From contig NZ_BSRQ01000011.1 of NCBI RefSeq assembly GCF_030268685.1, positions 217,318-281,317 on the forward strand: DNA of 64,000 nt. The letters are read 5' to 3'. The stretch comes from Microtetraspora sp. NBRC 13810 (GTDB taxonomy: Bacteria; Actinomycetota; Actinomycetes; Streptosporangiales; Streptosporangiaceae). Shown piece after piece: positions 9,162-20,953 of this stretch; positions within the stretch are counted from its first letter, which is position 1; every line of letters starts with the position of its first letter. A program made the position numbers and the translations under genes. Under the pieces are notes generated by a model, which searched no databases, was not told where the DNA came from, and worked only from the letters and a program-made list of their open reading frames with translations.

Positions 9162-10196
9162 ATGCGCTACATCGTGATCGGGGCCGGGGCGATCGGCGGG
9201 ACCATCGGCGGGCGGCTGTTCGAGAGCGGGCACGAGGTCGTCCTCGTCGCGCGCGGCGCCCACCACGACGCCATGCGGGCGGACGGGCTACGGCTGACGA
9301 CACCCGAGGGGACGGTCACCCTCCCGGTCCCCGTGGCGCGCGGGCCGCAGGACGTGACCCTGCGCGGCGACGACGTGCTGGTGCTGGCCGTCAAGACGCA
9401 GGACTCGCTCGCCCTGCTCGACGAGTGGGCGCGGGCCCCGGTCGCGGACGGCGAGGGCGGCACCGCCGGCGAGCGCCTGCCGCTGGTCTGCGCGCAGAAC
9501 GCCGTCGAGAACGAACGCCTAGCCCTGCGCAGGTTCGCCCGGGTGTACGGCATGTGCCTCTGGCTTCCCGCCACCCACCTCGACCCCGGCCACGTGATCG
9601 CGTACGGCACGCCGAAGTCCGGCATGCTGCACCTCGGCCGCTACCCGGGCGGCGCGGACGAGGTCGCCGGGCAGTTCGCGGCCGACCTGGACAAGAGCTC
9701 CTTCGCCGCCTTCGCCGTGCCCGACGTGATGCGCTGGAAGTACGCCAAACTGCTGGGCAACCTGGGCAACGCGGTGGACGCGCTGTGCGGCCGGGTGCCC
9801 GGCATCGACAAGCTCGTCGAGCGGGTGGCCGCCGAGGGCAGGGCCGTGCTCGACGCGGCCGGCATCCCCTACGCCACCGCCGAGGAGGAACGCGCCAGGC
9901 GCGGCGACCTGGTGGGATACGGCCGGGTGGAGGGGGCGGCCCGGTCCGGCGGCTCCTCCTGGCAGAGCCTCGCCAAGGGCAGCGGCTCCATCGAGGCCGA
10001 CTACCTCAACGGCGAGATCGTCCTGCTCGGCCGCCTGCACGGGGTGCCCGCCCCGGCCAACGAGGTGCTGCGCCGCCTCGCCGGGCAGTACGCCAGGGAG
10101 CACCGGCCGCCCGGCTCGCTCACCCCCGACGAGCTCACCCGGCTCGTCGAGGACGACCTCAGCCGCACCCTTCGAACTGGGGGACTGTCAGGGTGA
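9162..10196 (+). CDS. Ketopantoate reductase family oxidoreductase (ApbA/PanE-like)
   Basis: A 344-residue NADPH-dependent 2-oxoacid reductase homologue. The N-terminal Rossmann motif GAGAIGGTIG is at residues 7-16, the VLAVKTQ strand with the catalytic-site lysine near 80, QNAVENE near 112, and the C-terminal helical half carries W-K-Y-A-K-L-L-G-N, the position of the second catalytic lysine. True PanE makes pantoate for coenzyme A; the unusual length and the absence of panB or panC nearby make another 2-oxoacid plausible. The last 38 bases overlap, on the opposite strand, the 3' end of the GlnH-like gene. Confidence 0.82.
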   Translation: MRYIVIGAGAIGGTIGGRLFESGHEVVLVARGAHHDAMRADGLRLTTPEGTVTLPVPVARGPQDVTLRGDDVLVLAVKTQDSLALLDEWARAPVADGEGGTAGERLPLVCAQNAVENERLALRRFARVYGMCLWLPATHLDPGHVIAYGTPKSGMLHLGRYPGGADEVAGQFAADLDKSSFAAFAVPDVMRWKYAKLLGNLGNAVDALCGRVPGIDKLVERVAAEGRAVLDAAGIPYATAEEERARRGDLVGYGRVEGAARSGGSSWQSLAKGSGSIEADYLNGEIVLLGRLHGVPAPANEVLRRLAGQYAREHRPPGSLTPDELTRLVEDDLSRTLRTGGLSG

Positions 10197-10980
10197 GGTT
10201 GAGCCCGGTCGGCCCGAACCACTTCTCCAGCAGCTTCTTCGCGGTGCCGTCCTGGTACATCTCGGTGATGGCCTTGTTGACCGCCTCGCAGCCGTCCACG
10301 TCGCCCTTGGCGATGCCGACGCCGTAACGCTCGTCGCTGAAGGGCGCATTGACGATCTTGATGGACCGGTCCTCGGTGCCCGCGAAGCCGGCCAGGATCA
10401 GATCGTCGGTGGAGACGGCGTCCACCGAGCCGTCCTTCAGCTTGTCCAGGCACTCGCTGTAGGAGGCGGTCTCCACCAGCCGGACCGCGACCTTGCGCTC
10501 CTCGCTCACCCGGCGCCAGGAGTTGGAGCCCGTCACCTGGCACAGGCTCCGGCCGCGCAGGTCGCGCACGTTGTCGATGCCCGTCTCGGCGGCCCGCACC
10601 AGGGTGTCCTGGTGCGCCACGTAGTAAGGCCCGGCGAAGTCGACCTTGGTCTTGCGCTCGGGGGTGATCGAGTAGGTGGCGAAGATCAGGTCCACCCTGT
10701 GCTGCCGCAACAGGTTCTCGCGCTGCGCGGAGGGCGCGGGGACGAACCTGAAGTCGGTGAAGCCCAGCTTGCGGGCGACGTACGCGGCGACGTCGATGTC
10801 GAAGCCCTCGTAGCCGCCGTTCGCGTTGCGCAGGCCCAGACCGGGCTGGTCGGGCTTGACGCCGATGGTCAGGGTCTCCTTGTCCAGGATGGACGCCTGC
10901 GCGCCGCCGCCCAGGCCGCAGCCCGTCGCCGCCAGGACGAGGGCGAGGGCCACGGCGACGCCGGTCAGCTTGTTCTTCAC
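10159..10980 (-). CDS. glnH: GlnH-like glutamate/aspartate-binding lipoprotein
   Basis: A 273-residue periplasmic-binding-protein type 2 (SBP_bac_3) lipoprotein. The signal VALALVLAATGC has a lipobox with the modified cysteine near residue 21. The fold's ligand motifs are visible: EGFDIDVAAY (about 58-67), the DLIFATYSITPER segment (about 98-110) and the lobe-closing VDAVSTDDLI (about 185). It starts at GTG 10980 with GAGAGG upstream. No glutamate permease or ATPase gene accompanies it; instead it is the last gene of the PknG operon, as GlnH is linked to PknG in mycobacteria, where it senses Asp/Glu outside the membrane and signals through GlnX. Function here is by analogy. Its 3' end overlaps the convergent PanE-like gene by 38 bases. 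Confidence 0.8.
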   Translation of the reverse strand: MKNKLTGVAVALALVLAATGCGLGGGAQASILDKETLTIGVKPDQPGLGLRNANGGYEGFDIDVAAYVARKLGFTDFRFVPAPSAQRENLLRQHRVDLIFATYSITPERKTKVDFAGPYYVAHQDTLVRAAETGIDNVRDLRGRSLCQVTGSNSWRRVSEERKVAVRLVETASYSECLDKLKDGSVDAVSTDDLILAGFAGTEDRSIKIVNAPFSDERYGVGIAKGDVDGCEAVNKAITEMYQDGTAKKLLEKWFGPTGLNLTLTVPQFEGCG

Positions 10981-10990
10981 GACATGCCTC

Positions 10991-12475
10991 TCAGCGGTAC
11001 TCGGACAGCCGGGGAGCGACACCGGCGAGGATGAGCAGGACGGCGAGCACGGCCGCGCCGGGCAGGATGAGATCCCAGCCGGAGAGCGCGTCGTCACCGT
11101 CCCGGATGGCCTGGTCGAACGCGTCCTTGTGCAGGTCGATCAGGCCGACCAGTTCCTTGTCGTAGTTCTCGAAGGCCCCGGCGAGCGGCCCCATCCGCAG
11201 CGCGATCGCCGACCGTACCTGGTCGCGCTGCACGTCGAGGCGCATCGCGCGGTCCTGGAACTGGAAGTCCCGGTAGTCGCCGAGCACCTCGCGGACCGCC
11301 GCGCGCTGGCCGGGCAGCGTGATGTTCGCCGCCTCCGCGCCGAGGAAGCCCAGGAAGTCCGGCCGGTCCCGGTAGCCCCCGACCGCCTTGTCCACCCCCG
11401 CGTAGTACTTCTCCAGGTTGCCGCCCGGGGTGTAGAGCACGGACTGCGACTTGTCGAGATAGACCTGTTCGTAGGTGTCCGCCCGCTCCGGGTCGAGCAG
11501 GTAGCGGCTCTGGTCCCCGTGCATCGTGTTGCCGATCGCCCGCGCCCTGGACAGCGCGAGCACGGAGGTGAACCCGTCGTCGTTCGCCATCCGCAGCTCC
11601 GCCGCCTCGGTCGTGAGCAGCGAGGCCGCCGAGACCGTCAGCACGGCGACGGCCACGGTCGCCGCCACCAGCGCCGGGTTGGTCACCCGGCGGAACCGGC
11701 GGGCGAGGTAGACCTGGAGCCCGACGAGCACCAGGATCGTGCCGAACCCGGCCACGATCACCAGCCCGCGCCCGGTGGTCACCGCCGAGCTCTCCTCCTC
11801 GTACGTCTTGCGCACGATGGTGCCGCTGTCCAGCGTGAGGTTGTACGCCTTGGGCAGCAGGTCGAGCCGCATCAGGTCGGTGGCCTGCCGGTAGAGGTCG
11901 ATCACCCGCTGCGGCGGCGGCCCCGCCGGGTGCCCGGCCTGCTCGTCCAGCAGGATCGCCTGCGCGGCCAGCCGCTCGTACCGGCCCAACCCGTCGAGCA
12001 CCGAGCGTACGGTCATCTGCTCGGTGCCGTCCCCGATGGCCAGTTCCGCGGCCTGGAGCACGGCCCGGCTCGCCTCGGCCCTGCGCTGGTCGTACCGGTT
12101 CAGCGCCTCCTGCCGGCCCTTGCCCAGCCCGACCTCCCTGCCGATCAGCAGCACGTTCGCCACCTGGGCGTCCATGTCGCTCAGCGCGAAGTACAGGTCG
12201 GCGGTGGCCACGACCTGCGGTCCGGCGTCGTGGCCGATGACCTGGAGGCCGTCCCTGGCGTTCCCGATGGTCAGCGCCGTCGCGGTGAAGAGCAGCGCGA
12301 CCGCGGCCACGCCCACCCCGGCGAGGAGCCGGATGCGGCTCGGCACCGTACGCCGCCGGCGCGGACGCCCGGCGGGCGGCGGCGCGGCGGGCGGCACGGC
12401 CGGGGTCGCGCCCGGCCCGGCCGGCGTGGGGGCGGGCGCTGCGCCGGCGGGAGGCGCGGTGACGGGGGTGCTCAC
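10991..12475 (-). CDS. glnX: GlnX-like four-helix membrane sensor protein
   Basis: A 494-residue integral membrane protein. A proline/alanine-rich cytoplasmic N-terminus ending in an Arg cluster is followed by a helix at about 49-70, an extracytoplasmic helical domain of about 165 residues, two helices at about 237-258 and 268-288, a second extracytoplasmic domain of about 180 residues and a last helix at about 468-488. That duplicated layout, with helical-bundle sensor domains like those of chemoreceptors, matches mycobacterial GlnX, which links GlnH to PknG. GTG 12475 lies 5 bases beyond the FHA stop; the GlnH-like gene starts 10 bases after its own stop. No enzymatic domain is present. Confidence 0.72.
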   Translation of the reverse strand: MSTPVTAPPAGAAPAPTPAGPGATPAVPPAAPPPAGRPRRRRTVPSRIRLLAGVGVAAVALLFTATALTIGNARDGLQVIGHDAGPQVVATADLYFALSDMDAQVANVLLIGREVGLGKGRQEALNRYDQRRAEASRAVLQAAELAIGDGTEQMTVRSVLDGLGRYERLAAQAILLDEQAGHPAGPPPQRVIDLYRQATDLMRLDLLPKAYNLTLDSGTIVRKTYEEESSAVTTGRGLVIVAGFGTILVLVGLQVYLARRFRRVTNPALVAATVAVAVLTVSAASLLTTEAAELRMANDDGFTSVLALSRARAIGNTMHGDQSRYLLDPERADTYEQVYLDKSQSVLYTPGGNLEKYYAGVDKAVGGYRDRPDFLGFLGAEAANITLPGQRAAVREVLGDYRDFQFQDRAMRLDVQRDQVRSAIALRMGPLAGAFENYDKELVGLIDLHKDAFDQAIRDGDDALSGWDLILPGAAVLAVLLILAGVAPRLSEYR

Positions 12476-12480
12476 GGCGG

Positions 12481-13437
12481 TCAGCCTTTCCTCAGCGTGA
12501 TGACGGTCCATGCGCCGAGCCGGATCCGGTCGCCGTCGCCGACCGGGACCGGGACGTTCTGCGCGAGCGGCACGGGAGAGTCGTTGACCGTGGTGCCGTT
12601 GGCGGAGCCCGGGTCCACCAGGGTCCAGGAGCCGTCCGGCTGGGCCAGCAGCACGGCGTGCAGATGCGAGACGCCGGGGTCCTCGGGCGGGCCGCTCAGG
12701 TCGATCTCCGGGGTGAGGTTCCGCGACCGGCTGTACCGGCCGATGCGCACCTGCCCGCCCCGTACCGGGAACCGGCGCTCGGGGCAGTAGGGCGGGAACG
12801 CCACCCGCGGCGCGTCGGGACCGCCCTGCGCGATCACGCTCTCGTAGTACGCGCGGTCGGCCACCACCACCGCCTCCCACCCGCCGGCCGGCCCCGACTC
12901 CGCCGCCGGCCGGGCGGCTGCCCCGGTCCAGGACGGCGTGTAGGCGCCGGTCGCGGCGTAGGAACCGGTCTCGGGCGGTGCCTGCGGACCTGAGGTGTGC
13001 GGCGGGTGGGCGCCGGTACCCGTCTGCGGCTGGGCTCCGGCGCCCTGGGGCGGTTGGGCGGTGGGGAGGGGGTAGCCGGAGGCGGGGATCTGGCGGGAGT
13101 GGCGGGAGTCGCCGCTGGTGCCCGGGATGGGGCGGGCCGGCGCCGCCCCGAGGCGCGGGGTCTGCGCCGACTGCTGCGCCATGCGGACCGCGCCGGACAC
13201 CTCGACGGCGAAGTCGTAGCCGCACTCCTCGCAGAACCGGCCGGTGCGCCCGGCCTGGCAGTCCGGGCAGCTCGTCCGGCCCTCCCCCGCGCCGGCGGCG
13301 GCCGGGGCGGGCGGCGCCGGGGACGGCGGCGCGGCGGGCGCGGCTGAGGCGGGGGTCGGCGCGGCGGCCATGCTCATGCCGCAGACGTCGCAGTAGTCCG
13401 TCGCGTCCGAGGCGTGGCCGTCGGGGCAGGTGGCCAT
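12481..13437 (-). CDS. FHA-domain protein with two N-terminal zinc ribbons
   Basis: A 318-residue cytoplasmic phosphothreonine reader. Two zinc ribbons open it: a first with Cys4, Cys16 and Cys19 and His8, then a second with Cys57, Cys60, Cys69 and Cys72. A Pro/Gly/Ala-rich linker (about 85-200) leads to the FHA domain (about 232-310), which has the conserved GRYS loop, SHLHA and SANGT motifs that bind phosphothreonine. ATG 13437 follows GGGAGGAAG. In mycobacteria PknG acts through the FHA protein GarA; this protein is much longer and lacks the N-terminal ETTS phosphosite of GarA, so it is more likely a scaffold or reader than a GarA orthologue. It lies between the VWA and GlnX-like genes. 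Confidence 0.85.
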   Translation of the reverse strand: MATCPDGHASDATDYCDVCGMSMAAAPTPASAAPAAPPSPAPPAPAAAGAGEGRTSCPDCQAGRTGRFCEECGYDFAVEVSGAVRMAQQSAQTPRLGAAPARPIPGTSGDSRHSRQIPASGYPLPTAQPPQGAGAQPQTGTGAHPPHTSGPQAPPETGSYAATGAYTPSWTGAAARPAAESGPAGGWEAVVVADRAYYESVIAQGGPDAPRVAFPPYCPERRFPVRGGQVRIGRYSRSRNLTPEIDLSGPPEDPGVSHLHAVLLAQPDGSWTLVDPGSANGTTVNDSPVPLAQNVPVPVGDGDRIRLGAWTVITLRKG

Positions 13438-13447
13438 CGCTTCCTCC

Positions 13448-14734
13448 CTAGCTCTCGGGATCCTTGCGCAGGCGTGTGGTACGGACCGACCGGGCGTCCA
13501 GCGCGATCTCCGCGGCCTTCTCGACGTTGCGCTTGAGCCTCGCCGTACCGGTGTCCGGGTCGAAGTCGATGACGTTGTCCAGCAGCCGGGCGGTCTCCTC
13601 GTTGCCGGCCTTCTCGGCCAGGCCGCGGGCCCGGCCGAGCCGTGCGGTGGCGAGCTCCAGGTCACCCTCCTTGCGGGCCTGGAGGCCGTCCTGGATGAGC
13701 TCGGCCAGCTCGGCCTGCCCGGTGTAGTGCGCGACCCGCTGGTTGATCCGGGTGGACTGCGCCAGGTCGTCGCTCCACAGTGCCAGCACGTTGCCCGCGG
13801 CGTACTGGAAACCGGTCTCCGGGGCGACCACCTTCACCCAGGCGGCGCGCATCTCCTGGCCCACCACTCCGGGCTGGACCTCGACGCAGACGTGGTACTC
13901 CCGGCTTTCCGCGCCCCACGAGCCGGTCGGGTAGTCCCCCGCCTGCGGCCCGGCCTCGGTACGGCGGGCGGTGAGGTCCTCCAGGGTGGGCGAGACCTGC
14001 TTGACGAACTTCAGCCTGGCGTTCTGCGGGGTCCACACCCGCAGGGCGACGTCGGCGACCGCCTTGCCCATGGCCGTCTGCGCCATCGCCCGGAAGTCGG
14101 CCTCCAGGTCCTTGGGGTCCGGGATGTCCATCACGGTGCCGAGCAGCGTGGAGGAGATCTTGCGCAGCTCGGCGACCACCCAGGCGTCGCCGACTCCCCG
14201 GCAGTCGCAGACGAACTTGCCCGTGCAGTAAGCCAGGTCGGCGTCGAACTCCCAGGACTTCTGGTGCTCGTTCTTGCCGTCGGTGAGCAGGATGGCGTGC
14301 TTGATCGCGTGCGGGAACGGCTGGAAGAGGTCGGCGGCCAGACGCAGCCAGCGGCCCATCGCGGTGCCGCCGTCCGCCTGCAACCGGCCGATGGCGTCCT
14401 TCGCGGCCTGCCTGGTGTGCGGGTCGGCCTGGATCAGCCGCTGCTCCGGCGGGAAGATCATGTGCGCGTGCGCGGTGCCGGCGACGATCGCGAAGAAGAC
14501 CCCGTCGCGCAGGGTGTCCACGGCCGCCTGGGCCGCCTTCCTCGCTTCGGCGATCTTGCCGTAGGCCATCGAGCCGGACGTGTCGACGATGACGACCTCG
14601 GCTGCCTGCGCCGCCGGGGCCGCCTGCGCCGCGCCGGTGGACTCGACGGTGAGGACGGCGTGCACTTCCTTGCCGCCCGCGGGGAGGTACTTGTTCTGGT
14701 CCACGCGGATCGTGAACCCGGGCTGCTCGGTCAC
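13448..14734 (-). CDS. VWA-domain protein of the PknG operon
   Basis: A 428-residue soluble protein with a von Willebrand factor A domain at about 45-225. The metal-ion-dependent adhesion site is complete: DTSGSM (51-56), the GGTAMG threonine near 133, and LLTDGKN near 165. A beta-rich region and a helical C-terminal part (LGRARGLAEKAGNEETARLLDNV) follow, resembling a repeat-type interaction domain. It starts at GTG 14734, whose GTGA overlaps the stop of the PP2C gene. VWA domains usually mediate metal-dependent protein binding, so it probably assembles partners of the kinase and phosphatase. No membrane segment is present. Confidence 0.85.
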   Translation of the reverse strand: MTEQPGFTIRVDQNKYLPAGGKEVHAVLTVESTGAAQAAPAAQAAEVVIVDTSGSMAYGKIAEARKAAQAAVDTLRDGVFFAIVAGTAHAHMIFPPEQRLIQADPHTRQAAKDAIGRLQADGGTAMGRWLRLAADLFQPFPHAIKHAILLTDGKNEHQKSWEFDADLAYCTGKFVCDCRGVGDAWVVAELRKISSTLLGTVMDIPDPKDLEADFRAMAQTAMGKAVADVALRVWTPQNARLKFVKQVSPTLEDLTARRTEAGPQAGDYPTGSWGAESREYHVCVEVQPGVVGQEMRAAWVKVVAPETGFQYAAGNVLALWSDDLAQSTRINQRVAHYTGQAELAELIQDGLQARKEGDLELATARLGRARGLAEKAGNEETARLLDNVIDFDPDTGTARLKRNVEKAAEIALDARSVRTTRLRKDPES

Positions 14735-15630
14735 TGGAGAGGGCTCCCCTTCTCGAACGGGATCACCAGCACGGTGATGTTGTCGCGTCCCCCCGCCTGC
14801 AGCGCGAGCCGTACCAGGGCCTGGGCCGTGGGCAGGGGGGAACCCGCGGCGTGCGGAGCGGCGGCGGCCATCTCAGCGGCGGACGGCAGGTAGTTCCACA
14901 GGCCGTCGCTGCACACGAGGACCGCGCCGGGGCCGTCCGGCTCGAACGTCTTCACCTGCGGGAGCACCTCGCCCGCGTCCGCGCCCAGCCAGGCGGTCAG
15001 CATGCCGCCGTCGGTGGCGTCGTCGGCGGTGAGGCGCACCGGGCCGGCGCCCAGCCAGTAGGCCCGGCTGTCCCCCGCCCAGCCGACCGTCACCCGGCCC
15101 GGGGTCACGATCGCCGAGACGTAGGTGCAGGCGGGCGCGTCCTCGAAGGTGCCGAGGGTGGCGACCGCCGCCGCGGCCCTGGCGACCGCGATCCTGGTCG
15201 CCCGCACGTGTCCCGCGCCCGTCCGCAGCTCCGAGACCAGGGCCGCCGCCCCGGTCTCCGCCGCCGTCTGCGAGGCCGCGTCCGGTCGCGGCGAGGACGA
15301 GACGCCGTCGCAGACCACGCCGGCGATCGTGACGTCGTCCACCGCGGCCAGCGCCATCGCGTCCTCGTTGCGGCTGTGCCGCAGCCCGCGGTCGCTGACG
15401 CCGGCGGCGGTGCCCGTCTGGGTGGCCACCTGGATCTCGGTGTGGTCCCTGCCGGTCGGCTGGCGCACCCCGCAGCGCCCGCAGTAGCCGTCCTGGCCGA
15501 GCGCCGCCGCACCGCACGCCGTGCACGCCCCGGGGGCGCCGGGCCGGATCGCCCGCCCGCAGTCCTCGCAGAACGCCTCCCCGGCGAGCACCGGGTAGGC
15601 GCAGTGCGGGCACATCGAAGTGATCGTCAT
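14731..15630 (-). CDS. PP2C-type Ser/Thr protein phosphatase with N-terminal zinc ribbons
   Basis: A 299-residue metal-dependent phosphatase. Two zinc ribbons (Cys7, 10, 21, 24 and Cys36, 39, 50, 53) precede a compact PP2C domain. All main motifs are there: SDRGLRHSRNED (79-90), VCDGV (106-110) with the first metal aspartate, GWAGDSRAYW near 185, VLVCSDGLWNY near 247 and GGRDNITVLVI near 284. It starts at ATG 15630 in an ATGA overlap with the pknG stop and ends in a GTGA overlap with the VWA gene. It is the natural counterpart of the PknG kinase encoded just before it. Confidence 0.92.
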   Translation of the reverse strand: MTITSMCPHCAYPVLAGEAFCEDCGRAIRPGAPGACTACGAAALGQDGYCGRCGVRQPTGRDHTEIQVATQTGTAAGVSDRGLRHSRNEDAMALAAVDDVTIAGVVCDGVSSSPRPDAASQTAAETGAAALVSELRTGAGHVRATRIAVARAAAAVATLGTFEDAPACTYVSAIVTPGRVTVGWAGDSRAYWLGAGPVRLTADDATDGGMLTAWLGADAGEVLPQVKTFEPDGPGAVLVCSDGLWNYLPSAAEMAAAAPHAAGSPLPTAQALVRLALQAGGRDNITVLVIPFEKGSPLQ

Positions 15631-18272
15631 ACCCACGTCCTCGGGCGCACCAGGTTGGCCTTGTCCACGAGGGCGTGCCGCTCCGGCCGGATGGTGGACG
15701 CGCGGGCCAGCGAGCGGTAGACGCGCTCCAGCTCGGCGCGCACGCCGCGCTCGGTGAGCGGCCGGCCGAGCAGCTTCGTGCGCTGCTGGGACCGCCCGCC
15801 GGCGGCGAGCCAGGCGAGCGCGGCCTCCAGCACCTCCGCGGCCAGCCTGCCGTGCCGGACCGCGTCCAGCCCGAGGTCGCTCAGCCGCTCCCCGGCGCCC
15901 ACCAGCTCGTCCACGTGCCCGCCGGCCGCGGCCTCCCCGCGTACGGCCGCGGCCACCGCCGCCATCTGGGCCGAGACGTGATGGCTGGACGTGGTCGGCA
16001 CCTCGTCGAGCACCCGGGTGGCCGCCTTCCTGTCGCCCTCCGCCAGCCTGGCCCTGGCCAGGCCGAACGCGGCGCTCACGTAGGACCGGTCGGTGCGCCA
16101 GATGACGGTGTAGTGCCGTGCGGCCTCCCGCGGGTCGCCCGCGCACTCGCGGCTGAACGCCAGGGCGAGCCTGGGCGCGAACTCGCCGGGCATCCGGTAG
16201 TAGAGGTCGTCGAAGACCCTGATGGCGTCCGCGAGGTTGCCCCAGGCCAGGTCGCGCAGCCCGTGGTACCACAGGACCCGCCAGTCCCACGGCGCCTGCC
16301 CGGCCACCTCCTGCAGCACCGCGTTCACCCTCGGGTTGCGCTGTTCGACCAGCGCCCTGACCAGGGCGAGCCGGGTCTCGACGGTGGGCGTGGGGGCGGC
16401 CTCGATCAACCGGACCAGGTCGTCCAGGGTGCGCGCGGTCATGCCGGCGAGGTATCCCGCGGCGGGGTCGGCCGGGTCCACCAGCGGGGTCGGCAGCGCG
16501 CCCACCGCGGCGGCGGGGTCCAGCGGGACGAGCACCAGGCCGTCCCGCGCCCCCGAGCCGTTCCGCGCCGCCCCGCCGTTCGGCGCCATCCCACCGTGCG
16601 GCGCCGTCCCGGCGTGCGGGGCCATCCCGACGTGCGGCGCCATCCCGGCGTGCGAGGCCATCCCACCGTGCGGCGCCGTCCCGACGTGCGGGGCCGTCCC
16701 ACCGTGCGGCGCCGTCCCGGCGTGCGGGGCGAGGGCGGTGCCGGTGGCCGCGGCGGGCGTGTCGCCCTCGGCCAGGGCGGTCCCCGCGGCCACCCGCTCC
16801 GGGCCGAACTGCGCCGAAGGCGCGGGGTAGGGGATGCCGTCCTCCGCCGCGCGGATCTCCCGCAGGATGCCGGTGAGCTGCTCGGCCATCTCGGCCGCGC
16901 TCGGGAACCGGCGGGCGGGCACCGGGTCGGTGGCCCGCTGGAGGAACCGGTACAGCGACTCGTAGTAGGCCAGCACCGGCACCTGGCCGGGCGGCGGCAG
17001 CGGCGTGGGCACGCCGCCGGTGACCGGGCTGAAGGGGAAGCTGAGCACGGCGAGCATCCGGCCGACCGTGTAGAGGTCGGAGACGACCGACGGCCCCTCG
17101 GCGGCGATCTCCGGGGCCTGGTAGCCGATGGTGCCGTAGATCGCGCTCTCCTGGTCGTCGACGTGCCGCACCGCGCCGAGGTCGATCAGCTTGAGCTGGT
17201 CCTCCACCTGGATCACGTTGGCCGGTTTGAGGTCGCAGTAGAGCAGGCCCCGGTCGTGCAGGTAGTCGAAGGCGCGCAGCACCTCCAGGATGTAGGCGAT
17301 CGCCTGGCCGATGGGCAGCGCCTCGCGGTTGGCGGTGGCGCGCAGCCGGGCGCGCAGCATCTCCTGGAGCGGCCGGCCGCCGACGTACTCCATGACGATG
17401 TACCCGACCATCGTCATCGTGGCCGGGTCGGGATGCTGCACGAAGTTGAAGATGCGGACGATGTTGGCGTGGTCGACGCCGGTGAGGAAGCGGCGTTCGG
17501 CCTCGGCGGCGAGGAGCGCCTCGACGTCACCGGTGTCGAGCAGGCCCTTCAGCACGACCCACCGGCCGTCCAGGTTGAGGTCCGCGGCCAGGTAGATCCA
17601 GCCGAGGCCGCCGTGCGCCAGGCAGCCCTTCACCTCGTACTGCCCGGCGACCAGGTCACCGGGACGCAGCTTGGGGGTGAAGGAGAACCGGGTGCCGCAG
17701 TGCGGGCAGAATCCCTCGGTCCGGCCGGGACGGTCGTTCTTGGACCGGCCGACGGGCTTGCCGCACGAGCCGTTGCTGCAGAACCGCTTGTCCTCGGGCA
17801 CCTCGGGGTTGTGCAGTACGACCTCGGACGGGTCGCGGTAGGGCACCGGCGGCACCGCGACCAGCCCGGCGCCGAGCAGGCCGCGCCGCGAACGCGTGCT
17901 TGAGGTGCTGCGGCCCGAGGCCGGGCCGCTGGTCGGCCCGGTGGCGGGAGCCGTGCCGGGCGCGGTGCCGGGGGACGTCCCCGGGTCGTAGGCCGCCCGC
18001 CCGCTCGACGTCGCCGGCCGCCAACCCGCGGGCTGGGCCCGCCACCCCGTGCCGGGCACGCCACCCTGGGTGCCGCCGGACGCGCCGGGGCCGCCGGGGA
18101 CGGGCGGCGCCGGTGCGAAGGCGTGGGCCGCCGAGACGGGGGCGGATGCCGGCGGGGGCGCCGGCGGGGGCGGCGCGGACACCGGCGCCGCGACGGGCGG
18201 GGCGAGGCCGCACGAGTCGCAGTAGCCGTCCTGCACGGTCCCCGTACAGCCGGGGTGCGCGCACTTCGTCAT
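15627..18272 (-). CDS. pknG: PknG-type serine/threonine protein kinase
   Basis: An 881-residue soluble kinase. An N-terminal zinc ribbon (Cys4, 9, 18, 21) and a Pro/Ala/Thr-rich linker precede the PknG rubredoxin-like module (Cys165, 170, 189, 192). The kinase domain runs from about 211 to 480 with Lys242, YCDLKP (345-350, replacing HRD) and DLG (364-366, replacing DFG), all typical of PknG. After it comes a low-complexity hexapeptide array (encoded by 16567-16728) and a C-terminal TPR-like domain (about 630-870). Mycobacterial PknG controls 2-oxoglutarate/glutamate metabolism through FHA substrates and is linked to GlnH/GlnX. Start ATG 18272 overlaps the stop of the preceding gene (ATGA); its own stop overlaps the PP2C start. 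Length exceeds the usual 750 residues, mainly through the linkers. Confidence 0.95.
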   Translation of the reverse strand: MTKCAHPGCTGTVQDGYCDSCGLAPPVAAPVSAPPPPAPPPASAPVSAAHAFAPAPPVPGGPGASGGTQGGVPGTGWRAQPAGWRPATSSGRAAYDPGTSPGTAPGTAPATGPTSGPASGRSTSSTRSRRGLLGAGLVAVPPVPYRDPSEVVLHNPEVPEDKRFCSNGSCGKPVGRSKNDRPGRTEGFCPHCGTRFSFTPKLRPGDLVAGQYEVKGCLAHGGLGWIYLAADLNLDGRWVVLKGLLDTGDVEALLAAEAERRFLTGVDHANIVRIFNFVQHPDPATMTMVGYIVMEYVGGRPLQEMLRARLRATANREALPIGQAIAYILEVLRAFDYLHDRGLLYCDLKPANVIQVEDQLKLIDLGAVRHVDDQESAIYGTIGYQAPEIAAEGPSVVSDLYTVGRMLAVLSFPFSPVTGGVPTPLPPPGQVPVLAYYESLYRFLQRATDPVPARRFPSAAEMAEQLTGILREIRAAEDGIPYPAPSAQFGPERVAAGTALAEGDTPAAATGTALAPHAGTAPHGGTAPHVGTAPHGGMASHAGMAPHVGMAPHAGTAPHGGMAPNGGAARNGSGARDGLVLVPLDPAAAVGALPTPLVDPADPAAGYLAGMTARTLDDLVRLIEAAPTPTVETRLALVRALVEQRNPRVNAVLQEVAGQAPWDWRVLWYHGLRDLAWGNLADAIRVFDDLYYRMPGEFAPRLALAFSRECAGDPREAARHYTVIWRTDRSYVSAAFGLARARLAEGDRKAATRVLDEVPTTSSHHVSAQMAAVAAAVRGEAAAGGHVDELVGAGERLSDLGLDAVRHGRLAAEVLEAALAWLAAGGRSQQRTKLLGRPLTERGVRAELERVYRSLARASTIRPERHALVDKANLVRPRTWV
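16567..16728. repeat. 18-bp tandem repeat, nine units, inside pknG
   Basis: Nine in-frame 18-bp units encode the hexapeptide pattern (T/M)A(P/S)(H/N)xG between the kinase and TPR domains. The units differ by a few bases, so the array can change length by whole repeats without breaking the frame. The histidines recur every six residues. Confidence 0.9.
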
Positions 18273-19486
18273 CCGCCCGCTCCGATCTCCTTGATCGCCC
18301 GCTGGTAACCGGCCATCGCGACCGTCGCCTGGCGCAGGTCGCAGGGGGCCGTCCACAGCAGGTCGTGGGCCTGCCGGTAGAGGTAACCGAGCTCGGCGTC
18401 CTCGCCCGCGCCCAGCCGTACCGCCTTGGCCCGGAACGCCTCCAGCCGGCCGCGCAGCTCGTCGCGCCGGTCGATGAGACCGGTGACGGTGCCGGTCGTC
18501 GCGTGCGCCTGGGCCAGCGCGTCCGCCACGGCCCGCTCCAGCTCACCGGTACGGCGGGCCAGCTCGGCCCAGTCGCCCGCGGCGTGCGATCCGCCGAGCG
18601 CCGCGAGCCGGTCGCGCAGCGTGCCCGCCTGGTCGGGCAGGCCGGGGAGCACCGGGGAGGCGATCTTCACGAGGACCAGGTCGCGGGCGGCGCGGGCCGC
18701 GTCCTCCGCGGCGGCCACCGCGGCGATCCGCCCGGCCAGCTCGCGCACCCGCTCGCCGAACCCGGTCCTGATGGCCAGGGCGTCTTCGAGCACGCGGTGC
18801 CTGGCGGCGACGGCGGCGGCGATCCGGTCCAGCTCGACCTGCTCGCCCGGGTCGCCGGCGGCGTGGGTCAGCGGGTCGGCGCGCGCGGCGTCGCGGACGC
18901 CGATCAGCTCGCGGCCCAGGGCCTTCAGCTCGTCGTCCCCGTCGCCGAGGCGGAGCGACACCTCCCAGGCCGCCTTCCAGCCCTCCTCCGCCCGGCTGAT
19001 CCTGGGCGCCAGGATGGTCCAGGCGGCGTCGGCCATGGCGACGAGCTGGGCGCAGTCGCGGTAGGTGGCGTCCATCCGGGTGAGCACCTGGTCGAGCGTG
19101 AGCCACTCACCGGCCGAACGGACCAGCGAGCGCCGCTCCACCGGCACGTCCTCGACCTTCATCTCCACCGAGGCGCCGGTGAGCAGCGCGGTCAGCTCGG
19201 CCAGCTCCGCCGTGCCCGGCCGGGACCTGCGGCTCCTGATCTCCTCGGCGCGCTCAAGGGTGCGCCGGTAGGCGTCGAACAGCCACCACAGCGTGACGAT
19301 GCCGGCCCGGGCCTCGTCCCACCGCCGCCTGGTCTGCCCGCGCAGCTCGGCGCCGTCGAGGAGCCGGTGTCCGGGGTGGGCCTCCAGGTCGAGGAGATCG
19401 GTGGAGAGTCGTTCGAGCTGCGCGCGGCGCCGCTGCAGGGCATGGTCGACTCCCTCCATGCTCATTGGCGGCCCGCTCGTGCTCAC
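18269..19486 (-). CDS. Coiled-coil protein heading the PknG operon
   Basis: A soluble, almost wholly helical protein of 405 residues (398 if ATG 19465 is used), with long Arg/Glu/Ala/Leu stretches that should form coiled coils throughout. No catalytic motif, signal peptide or membrane helix is visible. GTG 19486 lies just after GGGGGAG, although the spacing is short; ATG 19465 (SMEGVDHAL...) is the alternative. Its stop overlaps the pknG start (ATGA), so it is translated as part of the same operon. It probably serves as a structural partner of the kinase complex, inferred from position only. Confidence 0.75.
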   Translation of the reverse strand: MSTSGPPMSMEGVDHALQRRRAQLERLSTDLLDLEAHPGHRLLDGAELRGQTRRRWDEARAGIVTLWWLFDAYRRTLERAEEIRSRRSRPGTAELAELTALLTGASVEMKVEDVPVERRSLVRSAGEWLTLDQVLTRMDATYRDCAQLVAMADAAWTILAPRISRAEEGWKAAWEVSLRLGDGDDELKALGRELIGVRDAARADPLTHAAGDPGEQVELDRIAAAVAARHRVLEDALAIRTGFGERVRELAGRIAAVAAAEDAARAARDLVLVKIASPVLPGLPDQAGTLRDRLAALGGSHAAGDWAELARRTGELERAVADALAQAHATTGTVTGLIDRRDELRGRLEAFRAKAVRLGAGEDAELGYLYRQAHDLLWTAPCDLRQATVAMAGYQRAIKEIGAGG

Positions 19487-20317: not shown

Positions 20318-20953
20318 TCAGGCGGCGTCGAACGCCTTCGTCACGGCGGCGCGGACCTCGGCCATGGTGGCCGGCAGGCCCTCGCGGGACGAGGAGGTCA
20401 TGTCGACGTCGGGCATGCCGCAGGCGATCGCCCAGTCCCAGGGTTGAAGGTCGCCGTCGACGTTGAGCGCGAAGCCGTGGCTGGTGACGCCACGGCTCTG
20501 CCGCATGCCGATGGAGACGATCTTGCGACCGGTGGCGGCGGTCCACACGCCGGTCAGCAGCTCCGAGCCCGGCGGGGTGTCCCTGCGCTCGGCGGCGATG
20601 CCCAGCGTGTCCAGGGCCTTGACGAGGCGCAGCTCGACCTCGCGCACGTAGTCGACGATGCCCTCGTGCTCGCCCAGCTTGACGATCAGGTAGCCGACGA
20701 GCTGGCCGGGGCCGTGGTAGGTGAGCTGCCCGCCGCGGCCCGTCTCCACGACGGCGATGCCGTGGGACGGGTCGGGAAGGTGCTCGGCCGGCGTGCGCCG
20801 GCCGATCGTGTAGACGGAGGGATGGCTGAGCAGCCACAGCGTGTCCGGCCGCTCGTCACGCTGGCGCTCGGCCACCATCTCGGCCATGCGCTCCATGGCC
20901 TCTTCGTATTCGACCAGGTCATCCTGGATCACCGACAACGGCCGTTCCTTCAT
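20318..20953 (-). CDS. lipB: Octanoyl-[acyl-carrier-protein]:protein N-octanoyltransferase
   Basis: LipB of 211 residues moves octanoyl groups from ACP to lipoyl domains of 2-oxoacid dehydrogenases and GcvH, the first step of lipoate synthesis. The signature RGGQLTYHGPGQ is at about 73-84, the catalytic lysine in GRKIVSIG near 142, and the acyl-accepting cysteine in AIACGMP near 178. Length is normal. It starts at ATG 20953, 19 bases after the stop of the PspC-like gene, so the two may be cotranscribed. lipA is not in the window. Confidence 0.95.
   Translation of the reverse strand: MKERPLSVIQDDLVEYEEAMERMAEMVAERQRDERPDTLWLLSHPSVYTIGRRTPAEHLPDPSHGIAVVETGRGGQLTYHGPGQLVGYLIVKLGEHEGIVDYVREVELRLVKALDTLGIAAERRDTPPGSELLTGVWTAATGRKIVSIGMRQSRGVTSHGFALNVDGDLQPWDWAIACGMPDVDMTSSSREGLPATMAEVRAAVTKAFDAA

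Follow-up and report, generated by a model that had tools for sequence, protein, structure and literature searches.

A Widespread PknG Operon Variant in Microtetraspora sp. NBRC 13810 with Additional Genes Resembling an Arn-Type Switch

Introduction

PknG is a much-studied nutrient kinase whose genetic setting is described, in the literature accessible to us, mainly in mycobacteria and corynebacteria; the same sources establish its three-gene operon with GlnX and GlnH and the conservation of that operon. In a 64,000-nucleotide stretch of the genome of Microtetraspora sp. NBRC 13810 (contig NZ_BSRQ01000011.1, positions 217,318 to 281,317; hereafter the window, to which all coordinates refer), the gene for PknG lies in a cluster of seven, together with genes for a coiled-coil protein (CC), a PP2C phosphatase, a VWA protein, an FHA protein, GlnX and GlnH. 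What might four additional genes do beside this kinase? We report here that the cluster is a widespread and well-conserved variant of the PknG operon, and that its additional genes resemble an Arn-type switch such as the ArnA-ArnB system of Sulfolobus. The accessible literature yielded no description of a PknG operon that contains PP2C, VWA and FHA genes, although the operon figure of PMC6069109, a source seen in part, might depict one, and it yielded nothing that joins archaeal ArnB with PknG.

Results

Organization and Conservation of the Gene Set

Seven minus-strand genes occupy positions 10159..19486, in the transcription order CC, PknG, PP2C, VWA, FHA, GlnX, GlnH (Table 1). Three junctions are 4-base stop/start overlaps and the remaining three are gaps of 10, 5 and 10 bases, so that the initial annotation, which had described seven genes with overlaps or gaps of 10 bases or less, was confirmed by the gene coordinates and by Pfam and NCBIfam domains. 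Pfam identified PknG_rubred, Pkinase and PknG_TPR in PknG, PP2C_2 and a double zinc ribbon (DZR) in the phosphatase, VWA_3 and VWA_3_C in the VWA protein, FHA in the FHA protein and SBP_bac_3 in GlnH. This PknG is the only one among 69 kinase-domain matches in the genome, and its closest named relatives come from Streptosporangium, Thermocatellispora and Spongiactinospora. The cluster shares with the mycobacterial and Corynebacterium GlnX-GlnH-PknG operon the kinase with its TPR domain (and the rubredoxin domain, present in mycobacteria), a GlnX-family protein, a solute-binding lipoprotein and the tight operon structure. It differs in its four added genes, in a zinc-ribbon motif at the N-terminus of PknG, in the position of GlnX-GlnH at the 3' end, and in a GlnH that derives from another lineage.

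The distribution of the gene set was assessed in two sets of loci. One comprised 60 loci around PknG, each no longer than 20 kb, hand-picked from search tables (the PknG-chosen set). The other comprised named loci obtained by a scan with the VWA alignment, which matched at least 593 stretches; the best 80 were kept, and 57 of these exceed 20 kb. PknG, PP2C, VWA, FHA, GlnX and GlnH were all present in 34/60 PknG-chosen loci (hand recount), and all seven genes, with CC detected by profile, in 26/60. By family, the six genes occurred together in 20/27 loci of f1, the family of the window, and in 7/10 of f18, 3/9 of f17, 3/3 of f24, 1/1 of f13, 0/1 of f25 and 0/9 of f6. Family f6 includes the mycobacterial type, because its GlnX scores 859.6 bits against the mycobacterial GlnX model (cut-off 780); GlnX-GlnH-PknG was found in 7/9 of its loci. 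In the named loci longer than 20 kb, which were chosen by VWA, all seven genes were found in 47/57, with single counts of 57 for VWA (by construction), 57 for FHA, 56 for PP2C, 53 for PknG, 52 for CC, 51 for GlnX and 49 for GlnH. These loci include members of Nocardioides, Kribbella, Cellulomonas, Oerskovia, Promicromonospora, Agreia, Rathayibacter, Kineosporia, Janibacter and Microlunatus. The usual order, in the named loci as well as in f18, f17, f13 and f24, is GlnX-GlnH-CC-PknG-PP2C-VWA-FHA, and in f1 the GlnX-GlnH pair lies at the opposite end, downstream of FHA. Within the PknG-chosen set, GlnX was present in 51/60 loci and a forward-strand GlnH in 46/60. Because six genes recur in 34/60 PknG-chosen loci and seven in 47/57 named loci, the gene set is not a chance association; restriction of the gene order to this strain had been named beforehand as a finding that would speak against a conserved operon, and the gene set was instead found to recur.

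In a class-level sample of 148 genomes, searched for PknG_TPR and GarA at E 1e-20 and for VWA at E 1e-40 with up to 12 first-look candidates scored per genome, PknG_TPR was detected in 45 genomes and the VWA type in 31. Thirty of the 31 VWA genomes also possessed PknG, the exception (G183) being a partial VWA match.

Some loci depart from this arrangement. In two Rathayibacter loci (L226 and L237), neither PP2C nor a forward-strand PknG accompanies the VWA-FHA pair over the roughly 10 kb (L226) or 5 kb (L237) upstream, where the only kinase match is a weak one on the opposite strand. Three Nocardioides loci (L183, L197 and L241) have, downstream of the cluster, additional weak matches to PknG-like kinases. 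A quick-method PknG tree does not settle whether the three-gene mycobacterial form arose by loss, and the idea that VWA-FHA is held more tightly than GlnX-GlnH was dropped, the named loci having been selected by VWA.

Table 1. Coordinates of the genes and motifs of the PknG cluster in the window.
Feature	Position	Strand	Description
CC	18269..19486	minus	405 aa, all-helical, first gene
PknG	15627..18272	minus	881 aa; zinc-ribbon motif, Ser/Thr-rich segment, rubredoxin, kinase, TPR
Four-Cys zinc-ribbon-like motif, PknG N-terminus	18210..18263	minus	By motif
PP2C phosphatase with double zinc ribbon	14731..15630	minus	299 aa; Pfam
Two zinc ribbons of PP2C protein	15472..15612	minus	Pfam DZR
VWA protein, ArnB-type	13448..14734	minus	428 aa; vWA, beta-sandwich and helical C-terminus; Pfam and predicted model
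Ser/Thr-Arg C-terminal tail of VWA protein, LDARSVRTTRLRK	13463..13501	minus	Motif conservation; candidate phosphosite for FHA reader
FHA protein, ArnA-like layout	12481..13437	minus	318 aa; two N-terminal zinc-ribbon-like motifs
First zinc-ribbon-like motif, FHA protein	13381..13428	minus	Sequence motif
Second zinc-ribbon-like motif, FHA protein	13222..13269	minus	Sequence motif
GlnX	10991..12475	minus	494 aa; four membrane helices (hydropathy), two periplasmic domains
RLSEYR, GlnX C-terminal motif	10994..11011	minus	Conservation; candidate PknG contact
GlnH, lipoprotein-like solute-binding protein	10159..10980	minus	273 aa; lipobox-like signal judged by eye

Kinase, Phosphatase and the VWA-FHA Pair

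The rubredoxin, kinase and PknG-type TPR domains and the active-site residues are all present in the PknG of the window. The catalytic Lys, Asp and Asn and the DLG Asp were conserved in 61/61 PknG rows, the metal Asp in 39/39 PP2C rows, and the MIDAS residues in 42/46 VWA rows, the other four being short frames. In the FHA protein, whose FHA domain is C-terminal, the phosphothreonine-pocket residues Arg, Ser and Asn were conserved in 38/40 rows. Since these key residues are conserved across rows, the kinase, the phosphatase, the VWA metal site and the FHA reader look functional. The proposal of a conserved PknG/GlnX/GlnH operon with PP2C, FHA and VWA genes of its own was supported, with the key residues intact.

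The predicted model of the VWA protein displays the full ArnB-type tripartite fold, in which a vWA domain is followed by a beta-sandwich and a C-terminal helical domain; the initial annotation had called the protein a scaffold, and by this model it is more than a generic one. Over its full length the protein is about 50% identical to 4FX5, the VWA protein of Catenulispora acidiphila (caci_2163), with the same fold and the tail included, and 4FX5, for which the accessible sources gave no function, is a true relative. The Sulfolobus ArnA-ArnB system likewise combines a zinc-finger-like FHA protein and a tripartite VWA protein with kinases (ArnC/ArnD), a phosphatase (PP2A) and a link to nutrients. 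In contrast, the present system is bacterial and holds the kinase, PP2C and membrane sensor in one operon; a Ser/Thr tail replaces the extended helix pair, and Cys motifs stand where ArnA has a RanBP2-type finger. The tail motif L[DEG][TA]xSxxT ends 98/98 main-type VWA rows (400-520 residues), as compared with 0/7 paralogue rows, and is a candidate PknG phosphosite that the FHA reader might grip. The most conserved nine residues of the VWA protein, AHYTGQAEL, lie at the linker and the start of the helical bundle and, by eye, near the site occupied by the ArnA zinc finger.

Zinc ribbons were found by Pfam in PP2C and in a GarA relative encoded elsewhere in this genome, and by motif in PknG and the FHA protein. 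No Cys occurred upstream of the rubredoxin domain in 9/9 rows of the mycobacterial-type f6 PknG (three covered only 20 residues). Two loci (L071 and L073) are two-gene PknG-VWA paralogue clusters that lack FHA and bear a zinc-ribbon motif on the C-terminus of VWA, and in two others (L056 and L057) an FHA-type zinc-ribbon motif is fused to GlnX; these fusions support a physical association of the proteins.

Adjacent kinase, PP2C and VWA genes with zinc ribbons also characterize the TerY-P triad (accessible sections of PMC11090510) and like neighbourhoods, which are linked to defence or metal stress, and actinobacterial kinase-ribbon/PP2C/vWA neighbourhoods appear in another conflict system in those of PMC7159879. 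The cluster could accordingly be a TerY-P-like triad for tellurite resistance or phage defence that captured an amino-acid sensor, which we regard as very improbable. The TerY-P kinase carries its zinc ribbon at the C-terminus (PMC11090510, same sections, where no GlnX or GlnH is described), whereas the kinase of the window bears its motifs at the N-terminus and ends in the PknG TPR domain. The PADLOC output consisted of generic matches to kinases and a single weak match to PP2C, with none for VWA, FHA, GlnX, GlnH or CC, and gene content and order are largely constant across several families.

The CC protein had no Pfam or NCBIfam match at E 0.01. Its AlphaFold2 model (mean pLDDT 92.2) is nearly all helix, and a Foldseek search against PDB chains gave nothing at E <=0.001, the top match being EzrA at E 0.24. 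The PknG linker between the kinase and TPR domains contains imperfect Gly/His/Thr-rich repeats (16540-16760). Upstream of the cluster lies a LipB-type gene (20318-20953); a metabolic link through this neighbour was rejected, as no LipB match at E 1e-15 was found in loci L031-L090 and L169-L248.

GlnX and GlnH as a Predicted Sensor

GlnX belongs to the family NF058618 (300.8 bits, cut-off 250; NCBIfam), and scored 56.1 bits against the mycobacterial GlnX equivalog NF041460, below its cut-off of 780. The pattern R[RLIV]x[ED][YF], defined only after the tails had been inspected, occurred close to the C-terminus in 108/108 GlnX rows, compared with 0/671 C-termini of the six other genes. In conservation the C-terminal tail ranked 2/442 among sequence windows, and the loop between the second and third membrane helices (TM2-TM3) ranked 25/436. 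According to the topology given in the accessible part of PMC9769921, both are short cytoplasmic parts of GlnX, and for this reason they are candidate contacts for PknG. The same part of that source terms the mode of GlnX-PknG interaction elusive, and the groove of the PknG TPR domain has been proposed as the GlnX site in the portion of PMC6069109 available to us.

The GlnH proteins of the window's family formed a clade (9 rows used) nested within ABC-type glutamate-binding proteins; the row closest to this clade (L100) adjoins two permease matches. A separate group (100/100) was formed by 14 PknG-linked GlnH proteins from other families. A single clade of all PknG-linked GlnH was rejected modestly (AU p 0.037) in a pruned test that omitted three outgroup rows, L167 and L105. 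We prefer this value to the p of 1.8e-59 from a first run, which was set aside because it contained the outgroup and one GlnH-like row away from PknG. Grouping of GlnH with true ABC transporter subunits had been named in advance as a finding against the proposal; this was observed in part, in the phylogeny, and the operon link still holds. One might thus suppose that this GlnH is a transporter-type glutamate-binding protein serving ABC permeases elsewhere, with GlnX-PknG responding to something else, and its nested position and the permease genes beside L100 agree with that. We nevertheless consider this improbable, as there is no ABC permease match near GlnH in this genome, the gene begins 10 bases downstream of glnX, and GlnX and GlnH are adjacent in 23/27 f1 loci.

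In Mycobacterium tuberculosis GlnH, the accessible text of PMC6069109 lists side-chain contacts by Arg147, Thr162, Trp232 and Lys161, and amine and carboxyl contacts by Ser164, Arg169 and Asp250. In the same numbering, the pocket in the window consists of Arg147, Ala161, Thr162, Ser164, Arg169, Tyr232 and Asp250, which are the letters of the glutamate-binding protein 5EYF, save Ser for Thr at 164. The sensor seems to have been exchanged while specificity for acidic amino acids was retained. At another locus (L107; G000:C1:676437-677093), a 723-aa frame that includes a solute-binding domain adjoins a kinase-domain match and is probably a StpK7-type fusion of a kinase and a solute-binding protein.

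GarA and the Usual Target of PknG

The operon FHA protein lacks the N-terminal [ED]TTS phosphosite of GarA/OdhI, as the initial annotation had stated and its sequence bears out. GarA itself, also an FHA protein, is encoded elsewhere: a relative on another contig (L092) combines an N-terminal zinc ribbon, a DTTST motif and an FHA domain. The usual target is therefore present, given this gene and GarA relatives in 144/148 genomes, and the notion that the operon packs the whole circuit into one unit was not supported as stated. The zinc ribbon on GarA was considered as a mark of PknG and rejected, since genomes that lack PknG, G003 and G065 among them, likewise have GarA matches that reach the ribbon (alignment start at residues 1-5), and one genome with PknG (G082) has a GarA match that begins only at residue 32. 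In an order-level sample, a genus of the same family (g2) had a PknG match in 0/5 genomes (G003, G009, G014, G016 and G032), and GarA was found in all four genomes of this genus that were searched.

The DTTST-bearing relative and the wide occurrence of GarA, together with the family membership of GlnX, would fit an ordinary GlnH-GlnX-PknG-GarA relay as in mycobacteria and Corynebacterium, its output being the control of 2-oxoglutarate dehydrogenase by GarA and the extra genes only helping to position PknG or to reset GarA; mycobacterial-type clusters indeed manage without those genes (GlnX-GlnH-PknG in 7/9 f6 loci). However, GarA occurs in about threefold more genomes than PknG (144/148 against 45/148) and so does not depend on it. 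Such a relay would also leave the VWA-FHA pair without a role despite its conserved working residues, and FHA stands beside VWA in 57/57 of the VWA-chosen named loci and in 40/46 rows of the PknG-chosen set. We judge it rather unlikely.

Discussion

With the predicted sensor, PknG, the phosphatase and the VWA-FHA pair together in one gene set, food supply likely decides, by way of phosphate marks, when the pair locks. The reading that we favour, to which we give roughly even confidence, is that GlnH/GlnX as a predicted acidic-amino-acid sensor, PknG, the VWA protein with its predicted ArnB-like fold, the FHA protein as its likely reader and PP2C form a nutrient-set Arn-type phosphorylation switch. 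The order of signalling, the phosphosites, the docking and the output that we infer from the observed gene set, residues and predicted-fold match would be as follows. GlnH would bind extracellular glutamate or aspartate and thereby change GlnX, whose C-terminal tail and TM2-TM3 loop would touch PknG, probably at its TPR domain. PknG would then autophosphorylate and phosphorylate the VWA protein, for which the conserved Ser/Thr tail is the candidate site. The FHA protein may be pre-docked on VWA through its zinc ribbon, like ArnA on ArnB, and its FHA domain would then bind the phosphorylated tail to give a tight complex. On food shortage, PP2C would strip the phosphates and the VWA-FHA complex would loosen. 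GarA may be phosphorylated by PknG in parallel. The likeliest output of the complex would be control of central nitrogen and carbon metabolism.

Several observations weigh against this switch. The VWA protein and ArnB are only about 14% identical, so that their shared fold is not shared function, and the VWA tail differs from the helix-pair site of ArnB. The tail Thr beside an acidic residue is Ala in the window. The conserved AHYTGQAEL stretch overlaps the pattern VAHYTGQ used to search for the named loci, originally chosen as the most conserved stretch in 14 earlier VWA rows, which biases the comparison in its favour; the VWA beta1-beta2 loop, considered as docking evidence, showed unremarkable conservation (rank 145/420). 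Co-variation of tail and FHA appeared in the count of the strict motif, present in 106/106 VWA rows with intact FHA as compared with 1/8 without (Fisher 1.9e-10; excluding the short frames L034, L044, L045 and L088, and named loci shorter than 20 kb without a detected FHA gene). It was dropped as evidence because it fails on a looser reading of the motif, looser forms being kept in L071 and L073 (STKT/STRT, upstream of the added zinc-ribbon motif), L056/L057 (TDRT) and L089 (SRWT). The VWA genes of L044 and L045 have no vWA/MIDAS part and keep the beta-sandwich and helical C-terminus, with the tail kept in L044. The Cys motifs of the FHA protein were read from its sequence, and no Pfam zinc-finger family was detected there. 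No VWA match was found in 15/45 PknG genomes (11 of f6, plus G005, G008, G012 and G082), and L036 and L048 lack both VWA and FHA. In other f1 GlnH rows Arg169 is altered in 6/24 and Asp250 in 3/24, and for this reason the GlnH ligand may vary across the family. As for the archaeal system, its phosphatase is PP2A and not PP2C, a 2026 Arn paper places proteins of this architecture mostly outside multi-phosphorylation-dependent processes, in Sulfolobus no decrease of an ArnB phosphopeptide was found to accompany loss of the complex, and motility there was normal after single-site changes.

A wider proposal, which we hold tentatively and at less than even confidence, is that of a bacterial Arn system. 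The ArnB-like VWA hub, and not GarA alone, would be the most widespread partner of PknG outside mycobacteria; the zinc-ribbon proteins, namely the FHA reader, the PknG writer and the PP2C eraser, would vie for a single docking site, its occupant being set by the supply of amino acids, and the textbook three-gene PknG operon would be a stripped-down form.

If the favoured reading is true, PknG in many actinobacteria drives an Arn-type scaffold-reader switch that the accessible literature has so far described only in archaea. The C-terminal motif of GlnX may then dock PknG, the Ser/Thr tail of VWA may be an unrecognised substrate, and the zinc ribbons would serve as plug-in tags. The same reading would also give 4FX5, a protein of solved structure, a possible role.

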